Part shown: positions 8,492 to 10,106 of the stretch, one piece after another
Layout of the letters: each line of letters starts with the position of its first letter
How positions within the stretch are numbered: the stretch's first letter is position 1
Assembly: GCA_013821425.1 (NCBI GenBank)
Contig: JACDGV010000016.1
Span: 1 to 64,000 of the forward strand
DNA: 64,000 nucleotides
Origin: Nitrosospira sp.
GTDB lineage: Bacteria; Pseudomonadota; Gammaproteobacteria; Burkholderiales; Nitrosomonadaceae
Direction: 5' to 3'
The notes under the pieces: model-generated
Seen by the model: only the letters and a program-made list of their open reading frames with translations
Told to the model about the DNA's origin: nothing
Databases searched by the model: none
Made by a program: the position numbers and the translations under genes

Positions 8492-8771
8492 GAGGGCTCA
8501 TTATAACAAACGGGAGGCGGAAAGAAGTGACGCAATCGGAAGGACGGTTCGATGCGTTCAACAGGCATTATGTGTGCTATCGTACAGAATCGCTCAGCTT
8601 AACGGGACAAGATTGTAGTGTTGCGGACGTATGCAAGGGCGCCAGGGCACCGGGCCCGACGTAACAAGCAGCCAAAATCGAAAGAGGAAAGATTACTCTA
8701 CTGCGCTACGCAATTGGTAAGCGCCTGCTTTCCGTATTTTGCTCATTTCGAACGACATTGGAGAAAATATC

Positions 8772-9347
8772 ATGAAAAACATACCTACTAAAAAATCAAT
8801 TATCTCTCTCGCCATTGGTTCCGCTTTCGCCACAGCGCTCGGAACCGCATCCATTGCGTCAGCCAGCGAGAATCCGTTCACGGCGCAGTCTTTAGATAAA
8901 GGCTATATGGTAGCGGGGCACCACGAGCATGGCGGCGGCTACGGGGAAAAGACGGACGGGCACGGCGGCATGAAAGATAAGGATAAAAAGTACGGCGAAG
9001 GCAGGTGTGGAATGTCCATGGCGGATACCGACAAGGACGGCCGGGTTAGCAAGGAAGAACATGCTCGCCACAGCGAAAAAATGTTTGAAATGATGGATAA
9101 AAACAGGGATGGGTTTATCGATAAGGATGAGGCCAAAATGATGAAGAAGAAGCACGGCGAATCCCGCAGGTCAGACGATCAATATGGGTCCCGCGACCGT
9201 TCCGGGCAGGGTGACCGTTCCGGGCAGGGTGACCGTTCCGGCTATGGTGACCGTTCAGGGCAGGGCGACCGCTCGGGATATGACGAGCAATACGGGACGC
9301 GGTCAGGTGATCGCGAGTTGCAGCACATGAGGCCGATGGGCGAGTAA
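8772..9347 (+). CDS. Secreted EF-hand protein with bufferin/HvfA-like N-terminus
   Basis: 191 residues from ATG 8772, preceded by GGAGAAAAT; an upstream in-frame start at 8739 would spoil the signal peptide. A Sec signal peptide (about 1-31, ending ASA) is followed by ENPFTAQSL and GYMVA, the NPF...L..GY..A pattern seen in bufferin/HvfA precursors. Then come a His/Gly-rich stretch, the sole cysteine in EGRCG (Cys79), two canonical EF-hand loops (DTDKDGRVSKEE 85-96, DKNRDGFIDKDE 109-120), and five DRSG(Q/Y)G-type repeats before the tail LQHMRPMGE. Probably a periplasmic or secreted metal-binding protein. The EF-hands are clear; the metallophore link is inference. Confidence 0.75.
   Translation: MKNIPTKKSIISLAIGSAFATALGTASIASASENPFTAQSLDKGYMVAGHHEHGGGYGEKTDGHGGMKDKDKKYGEGRCGMSMADTDKDGRVSKEEHARHSEKMFEMMDKNRDGFIDKDEAKMMKKKHGESRRSDDQYGSRDRSGQGDRSGQGDRSGYGDRSGQGDRSGYDEQYGTRSGDRELQHMRPMGE
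9195..9284 (+). repeat. Five 18-base in-frame tandem repeats
   Basis: Five consecutive 18-base units, each encoding a hexapeptide of the type D-R-S-G-Q/Y-G (the last unit ends in D). Units 1 and 2 are identical at the protein level and close at the DNA level. They lie inside the EF-hand gene and are likely to vary in copy number between strains. Confidence 0.8.
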
Positions 9348-9692
9348 AGATGCCGCCCCGGAGCGCTCGCTTGCTTGAAGAGCGTGAGTGAACGGGCGGG
9401 AGCCAGATGAGCGCTGAGGTTGGGTGCTATAGTTGCACGCGATCTCAGTCGCCGTGAGCAACGTCGCGGTTTCGCGGGTTTTTCGATCTAGCGTGGACTG
9501 CCCGTAAGGAGTAAGTGGTTCCGCCTTGGTTCCCTCGGCTCGGGCTCGTGTTGTTGCCCAGGCCAATGCCTCCTATCGGGAGCCGAGTTCTCAATTCATT
9601 GCCCTCGTCAAGGTTATCAATGTATCAGTGTCAGGGTCTCAGCTTGACCGTGCCCGCTTGACCGTGCCCGCGAGGGTTTAAACCGACCCGTA
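9348..9692. other. Gap between the two paralogous secreted-protein genes
   Basis: 345 bases with no gene I support. Near the right end a 14-base unit, CTTGACCGTGCCCG, is duplicated in tandem at 9643-9656 and 9657-9670, just upstream of the second gene and possibly in its promoter or leader. No clear terminator is seen after the first gene. Confidence 0.55.
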
Positions 9693-10106
9693 ATGGCGAA
9701 AATCATGGAAAATTGGTCCGCAAGAATATCGATTATCGCTTTCGCAGCCGGCTCGTCACTCGCTGCAATGCTTGCTATTCCGTCCATCGGGTCTGCCGGA
9801 ACACATACTTTTGCCGGGGGATCTCTTCCTGAAGGCTACGTGGTTGCCCATGCCCACACCGATCACGGGAAGAAGGAAGGGTATGGTCAAAAGAAGGATG
9901 GGCACGGTGAAAAGAAGCACCATGGTCATGGCCACGGCCACGGTCACGGTCACGGCCATGACCAATCCGGTAGGGCTGGCGATCAATATGGATCTGGCGA
10001 GCGTCCCGGCTATAGCGATCGATCGAGGCAGGGCGAGCAATATGAGACGCGGTCGGGCTACCACCGGCAGTTGCAACATATGAAGCCGATGGGTATTGGC
10101 GAATAG
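9693..10106 (+). CDS. Secreted His-Gly-repeat protein, paralogue of the EF-hand protein
   Basis: 137 residues from ATG 9693 (ATG 9705 is an alternative; neither has a strong ribosome site). A signal peptide (about 1-35) is followed by FAGGSLPEGYVVAH, matching the first paralogue's SL..GY.VA pattern, and the protein ends in QLQHMKPMG as the paralogue ends in LQHMRPMG. Between lies a run of HG dipeptides (residues 77-88) within a His/Lys/Gly-rich region (53-90). It has no cysteine and no EF-hand. A role in binding Ni, Zn or Cu outside the cytoplasm is suggested by composition only. The shared ends show it arose by duplication followed by replacement of the middle. Confidence 0.65.
   Translation: MAKIMENWSARISIIAFAAGSSLAAMLAIPSIGSAGTHTFAGGSLPEGYVVAHAHTDHGKKEGYGQKKDGHGEKKHHGHGHGHGHGHGHDQSGRAGDQYGSGERPGYSDRSRQGEQYETRSGYHRQLQHMKPMGIGE

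Follow-up and report, generated by a model that had tools for sequence, protein, structure and literature searches.

We propose that ORF A of Nitrosospira sp. encodes a captophorin-type (bufferin/oxazolin-like) RiPP precursor of the EGKCG plus EF-hand kind, which lies off the biosynthetic locus and is matured in trans. This is the reading that we favour and consider fairly probable. For A we infer modification at Cys79, copper binding, calcium binding and regulation by stress. ORF A and its paralogue ORF B stand in tandem on the + strand of the window (the whole stretch of DNA that was analysed, 64,000 nucleotides), lying between two - strand genes, that for DUF815 and argJ. The features discussed below are as follows.

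8569-8589, + strand: conserved motif TATGTGTGCTATCGTACAGAA, which has 0 mismatches to the genus motif and stands 203 bases ahead of the start ATG of A
8772-9347, + strand: ORF A, secreted EGRCG and EF-hand precursor protein, 191 aa
8772-8864, + strand: signal peptide of A, residues 1-31, assigned by eye and well conserved
8868-8915, + strand: leader ENPFTAQSLDKGYMVA of A, residues 33-48, common to MNIO-locus precursors
8997-9011, + strand: EGRCG core of A, residues 76-80
9006-9008, + strand: codon of Cys79 of A, the candidate MNIO target
9024-9059, + strand: EF-hand loop 1 of A, DTDKDGRVSKEE, from Pfam and alignment
9096-9131, + strand: EF-hand loop 2 of A, DKNRDGFIDKDE, from Pfam and alignment
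9195-9271, + strand: 18-bp repeats of A coding for GDRSG[Q/Y], within a fast-evolving linker
9318-9344, + strand: C-terminal tail LQHMRPMGE of A; the tail pattern occurs in 23/23 genus genomes
9693-10106, + strand: ORF B, paralogue of A with neither Cys nor EF-hands, 137 aa, with an alternative start at 9705 (second ATG)
9918-9959, + strand: HHGHGHGHGHGHGH run of B, 8 His in 14 residues, written in mixed synonymous codons
10071-10094, + strand: C-terminal tail LQHMKPMG of B

The initial annotation had described A and B as two tandem secreted paralogues with shared motifs at both ends, and all of these motifs are present. A carries ENPF, SLDKGYMVA, EGRCG and the terminal LQHMRPMGE, and B carries SLPEGYVVA, the HHGHGHGHGHGHGH run and the end LQHMKPMGIGE, with no Cys. 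The signal peptide is evident by eye in both proteins, and B has the signal peptide, GYVVA and the tail in common with A. The likeness goes beyond chance, as judged from the N-terminal profile described below and from a DNA pattern of the tail, which at <=1 mismatch gave 2 matches in the 3.14-Mb genome (A and B) and 0 in the controls. A was also correctly described as having a single cysteine in EGRCG and two EF-hands, since Cys79 is its sole Cys and both EF-hands were found by Pfam (PF13202, 8.3e-11; PF00036, 2.6e-11; two stretches each). Its hexapeptide repeats correspond to the 18-bp tandem array at 9195-9271. In a PDB sequence search, the EF-hand part of A resembled mostly troponin C and other EF-hand proteins including lanmodulin, among the best 60 of 64 matches. 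On B, Pfam found no EF-hand.

The maturase genes that had been proposed for a search of the genome were both found. PF05114 matches once in the own genome, on contig C44, and A is on contig C61. The C44 MNIO belongs to the HvfB family (NF003818, 436 bits against a cut-off of 360) and the next gene is HvfC (NF050145, 264 bits against a cut-off of 142). Directly before the HvfB gene lies a third precursor, P, with a signal peptide, DPFAMKTLEEGYMIA, EGKCGMSAADANKDGK and EF-hands. P carries a single EGKCG core and is 43% identical to A (E 2.3e-19), and the core and EF-hands of the two proteins are alignable besides the N-terminus. With an N-terminal profile of 46 positions, 37 first-look candidates of the own genome were scored and 3 passed at E 0.01, namely A (1.1e-27), P (3.7e-13) and B (4.1e-7). 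The suggested link to bufferin/HvfA-type precursors thus holds in the form of an N-terminal similarity specific to the MNIO-locus precursor P. This profile joined A and B to P, and the family models named for checking the link did not match: DUF2282 (PF10048) had no match in A, B or the whole own genome, and the NCBI HvfA repeat model (NF050137, KCGExKCG twice) had none to A or B at E 10, and reached 10.6 of the 19.5 bits of its cut-off with P. The identities of DUF2282 bufferin and, for A and B, of HvfA repeat protein were rejected on these grounds. The idea that the metal-binding core had been swapped for EF-hands or poly-His fits B, which has the His run and neither Cys nor EF-hands; it is not supported for A, where EG[KR]CG is kept beside the EF-hands.

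A is present in all 23 genus genomes examined (G000-G022, the Nitrosospira group), and every one of these genes has EG[KR]CG, an EF loop and a tail H[M/L][K/R]xM[G/D]. MNIO and A co-occur in 23/23 genus genomes and lie at separate places in 23/23. An MNIO-locus EF-hand precursor with Cys-Gly before the loop was likewise found in 23/23, and in 12 of the 23 one such precursor reads EGRCG, like A. A further conserved His/Met tail, [PS]H[GA]xMKK, closes many of the MNIO-locus precursors (e.g. L002:8912-9310). In an alignment that covers 20 A proteins, all of the 23 but L009, L011 and L073, the Cys is invariant. Across these 20 proteins pN/pS was lowest in the core (0.11) and rose through the EF-hands (0.18), signal peptide (residues 2-32, 0.22), tail (0.25), leader (0.27) and spacer (0.39) to the linker (0.52); synonymous sites are near saturation, so the rank order alone of these values is meaningful. 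The conserved signal peptide of A fits a role of the signal peptide in maturase recognition within this class, for which a preliminary result on bufferin 1 is given in the accessible text of PMC12452194.

A tree was built from 71 precursor rows and 118 columns, and many of its forks are weak. In it the A proteins formed one clade (100/99) of 22 rows plus one from G072, separate from the MNIO-locus precursors; the tree omits one of seven proteins of the sister genus g4 (L157) and the H[Q/K]C-type proteins. Most named relatives of A (17 of 21 loci) belong to the ammonia-oxidising betaproteobacterial genera Nitrosospira and Nitrosovibrio. The remaining loci are L103, filed as Nitrosomonas eutropha, and L106-L108, weak matches elsewhere to the EF-hand only, which were dropped from the set. 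The order DUF815-A-argJ is kept in 15 of the 18 named loci, the exceptions being L098, which stops after A, L088, with argJ and without DUF815, and L103, without both. One A protein (L025:1222-1863, G005) carries the module of EGxCG and EF-hand pair twice and has 5 Cys.

Among known systems, the closest is one already published, the second type among the Buf_EGKCG precursors, which have a signal peptide, a short EGKCG stretch and two EF-hand_5 (PMC12452194, accessible text). Since the N-terminal profile reaches A, P and B and P stands at the MNIO locus, A is read as a trans-encoded 'Buf_EGKC|EF-hand_5' precursor. Like the members of this type, A has an EGKCG-type core without 17-residue repeats and two EF-hand_5; the signal peptide or hydrophobic helix usual at their N-terminus has its counterpart in the apparent signal peptide of A, read by eye. 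Adjacency to MNIO and DUF2063 genes was found for P and not for A (C61 against C44). Such adjacency is usual and not strictly defining, because stand-alone precursor genes, with possible modification from another locus, are discussed in the same paper. A differs from the published proteins in lying outside the MNIO locus in 23/23 genomes, in forming its own clade, in its His/Met tail and in its stress-type upstream motif; B, without Cys and EF-hands, lacks both the core and the EF-hand_5 of the type. Oxazolin/HvfA, fontiphorin and other captophorins, as presented in the accessible parts of PMC12668002, share EG[K/R]CG and a locus of HvfB-type MNIO and HvfC, whereas A has one core per protein rather than EGKCG repeats, and fused EF-hands. 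Bufferin 1 (DUF2282) belongs to the Sec-exported, MNIO/DUF2063-dependent class (PMC12452194, accessible text), of which A would also be a member, and A and B are without DUF2282. Lanmodulin (NF053806) is also a bacterial EF-hand protein, but A matches its model with 25.7 bits against a cut-off of 135, the matching stretch is just the core and EF-hand (80-129) and the N-terminus is different; membership was rejected as sub-threshold.

Upstream of A, the motif TRTGTGYGCTAWCGWACNGAA was found 165-224 bases before the start in 18 of 19 regions with <=3 mismatches (L103 is the miss). It was found in 0 of 12 upstream regions of P genes, with 7 mismatches at best; these regions represent 12 of the 23 MNIO loci and some of their start codons are approximate. 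As the motif was derived from the A alignment, its presence before A is circular, and the independent evidence is the P genes and the genome count, which was 17 sites in the own genome against 4 for the reversed pattern. When 300-bp stretches were drawn at random from the window, 398 of 400 had >=6 mismatches and 2 had none; the latter must overlap 8569-8589, the sole motif site in the window. The motif is palindrome-like at 8569-8589 and at the 16 further sites (L110-L125). At 7 of these 16 sites Pfam identified DUF4142, beta/gamma-crystallin, KGG stress repeat, hemerythrin, CBS, alpha-amylase, DUF1264 and M23/LysM proteins. Other sites are near genes not obviously stress-related (a Crp-like and an FAD-dependent protein, by eye), and L116 and L117 have no convincing gene nearby. 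The genes identified by Pfam, several of them of stress type, may form a stress regulon, and the motif could mark where an unnamed general-stress regulator of Nitrosospira acts. It is kept before A in G002 despite the absence of DUF815 there, so it probably belongs to A.

The relatives outside the genus bear on the relation between the Cys and the MNIO. The sister genus g4 comprises 8 genomes within the family set of 125, and PF05114 was unmatched in 6 of the 8 (G025, G031, G034 and G061, 92-99% complete; G063 and G064, 72-79% complete). The MNIOs of the other two, G028 and G062, scored 306 and 317 bits against 342-357 in the genus, with HvfC matches below cut-off. In all 7 g4 precursors examined (all but that of G062) the Cys is replaced by Tyr (EDKYG, GGGYG, GGKYG) and the EF-hands are kept; 6 of these 7 genomes are without MNIO, G028 being the exception. 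The [PS]H[GA]xMKK tail is kept in some of the Cys-less g4 proteins. The g4 losses may be one event. Elsewhere, G076 (99% complete) keeps GEGKCG with no PF05114 or HvfC match, and G072 (80% complete), where an MNIO match is likewise missing, has EAPCG, which still includes the Cys, and no tail. The A protein of G017 has lost NPF and GY of the leader and retained the Cys, which indicates that leader and Cys are not strictly tied. Nitrosomonas-type genomes contain His-rich EF-hand relatives in which H[Q/K]C replaces EGKCG, with an MNIO or without (no PF05114 at L163, L164, L166, L170 and L171; PF05114 at L180-L187 and L086). Given G076, G072, G017 and the H[Q/K]C relatives, the link between Cys and MNIO across the relatives is suggestive. 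The stronger rule that Cys retention always needs an MNIO was rejected, as it is at odds with G076 and with the g3 EF-hand proteins of H[Q/K]C type. The precursor-type signal peptide and leader were also matched in G028 (L072:6504-7061), G067 (L160:185-817), G066 and G134; the G028 and G067 matches, tested by Pfam, are LTXXQ (Spy/CpxP-type) proteins, and G066, G067 and G134 have no PF05114 match, which for G134 follows from its not being among the genomes listed as positive.

By analogy with characterised systems, A would work as follows. It would be made with its Sec signal peptide and ENPF...GYMVA leader, and the HvfC and HvfB-type MNIO encoded on C44 would bind to this N-terminal signal and oxidise the Cys79 within EGRCG, the product being probably 5-thiooxazole. 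In the characterised systems, HvfC presents the precursor to HvfB, and the Cys of EG[K/R]CG is converted to a 5-thiooxazole that binds Cu (PMC12668002 and PMC12538549, accessible parts). After modification, A would be exported by Sec and its signal peptide cleaved. Once in the periplasm, A would bind Cu(I) through its single modified Cys, perhaps together with the conserved His/Met tail, which general metal chemistry suggests as a Cu(I) ligand. The EF-hand pair beside the core would bind Ca2+ and order the core. Expression of A would be under the stress-type motif, and since this stands before A and not before P, one maturase would serve two differently controlled precursors. Any metal binding by B would be unmodified, via the His run and the shared tail.

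The alternative nearest to this proposal is that A is an ex-precursor, that is, a periplasmic Ca2+-binding EF-hand protein of RiPP descent whose Cys is a plain thiol (for metal or disulphide) and sees no MNIO. A never lies at the MNIO locus (0/23 genus genomes), G076 keeps EGKCG with neither MNIO nor HvfC matched, and the Nitrosomonas-type relatives keep H[Q/K]C irrespective of an MNIO. In addition, the characterised relative FonBC required two repeats and did not modify a one-repeat substrate, which counts against maturation of A with its one Cys; the same enzyme tolerated Arg for Lys in EGKCG, and on the two-repeat FonA peptide a mass loss of 8 Da was recorded (PMC12668002, accessible parts). 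But P, whose gene immediately precedes that of the MNIO, also has just one EGKCG core, which suggests that the Nitrosospira enzyme accepts single sites. Moreover, the entire EG[KR]CG and not just the Cys is kept in 23/23 A proteins, the same as in the MNIO-locus precursors of the genus, and it is the most constrained part of A, which we count in favour of maturation in trans. The change from Cys to Tyr in the 7 g4 proteins examined, in a genus where 6 of 8 genomes are without MNIO, counts in the same direction, while G076, G028 and the possibility of a single g4 event count against it. We regard the ex-precursor explanation as unlikely.

Two further points weigh against the captophorin-type reading of A: the HvfA model does not match it, and the same N-terminus on LTXXQ proteins, some in MNIO-less genomes, is perhaps not a maturase signal. 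At the extreme, the resemblance to bufferins and HvfA could be a generic signal peptide alone, as its composition is common to signal peptides and A and B match neither DUF2282 nor the HvfA model. This is regarded as very unlikely and was rejected, since in the own genome the N-terminal profile picks out A, P and B and no other protein, and A and P align over the core and EF-hands too. Trans maturation of a captophorin-type precursor A is the reading retained.

B cannot be an MNIO substrate of A's kind, because it has no Cys, and it may be either functional or decaying. That it is a functionless duplicate in decay, with a His run produced by repeat drift, is a serious possibility. The B gene was seen in at least 2/23 genus genomes (own and G002), its ribosome-site region reads GGCG against GGAG in A, its leader has degenerated (33/70 N-terminal positions identical to A, 47%) and it sits on a very long branch. 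Yet the frame is open for 137 codons and indels relative to A are in frame. The comparison of A with B gives a pN/pS of 0.37 over the whole length and of 0.27 for the C-terminal part, values that average the two branches; the tail remains intact, and the histidines of the run are encoded by a mixture of synonymous codons. The G002 B has EGRSG for EGRCG and deleted EF-hands, and over the N-terminus it agrees with its own A at 58/71 positions (82%). In a tree of 19 A and 2 B rows, without L009, L010 and L022, the closest relatives of the window's A, the G002 B grouped with the A of the same genome (support 95/93), and forcing the two Bs into one clade gave a worse fit (p-AU 0.042). A single shared duplication is thus weakly disfavoured, the case being weak because of the long branch of the window's B and the three missing A rows. 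There is moderate evidence for two separate origins of the Cys-less copies.

A wider scenario can be put forward tentatively, as possible and doubtful. One Nitrosospira MNIO/HvfC pair would serve at least two Ca2+-linked copper-binding precursors that are controlled independently, P as part of the biosynthetic operon and A, encoded in trans, through the stress-type motif. The tail of A would be an extra metal ligand or docking element, and Cu(I) at the modified Cys would be coupled to Ca2+ in the EF loop six residues off. A would more than once have been the parent of Cys-less paralogues (B) that need no maturation and hold metal via histidines.

Ammonia oxidisers rely on copper enzymes. Our literature search for MNIO/DUF692 or EF-hand proteins in ammonia oxidisers (Nitrosospira, Nitrosomonas) found none, and the main text of the MNIO survey has no word beginning with 'Nitroso'. 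The genus-wide trans-encoded clade, the tail of A, the upstream motif, the g4 Cys loss and the Cys-less paralogues are not described in the accessible text of PMC12452194. The conserved exported A is probably turned into a modified, copper-binding peptide that has calcium-binding loops fused to it. The family offers a clean system to ask if one MNIO modifies substrates in trans and what links a modified Cys to the adjacent EF-hand, with the mostly maturase-less and Cys-less g4 as a natural comparison. The Cys-less paralogue B gives an example of how a RiPP precursor may leave its maturase.
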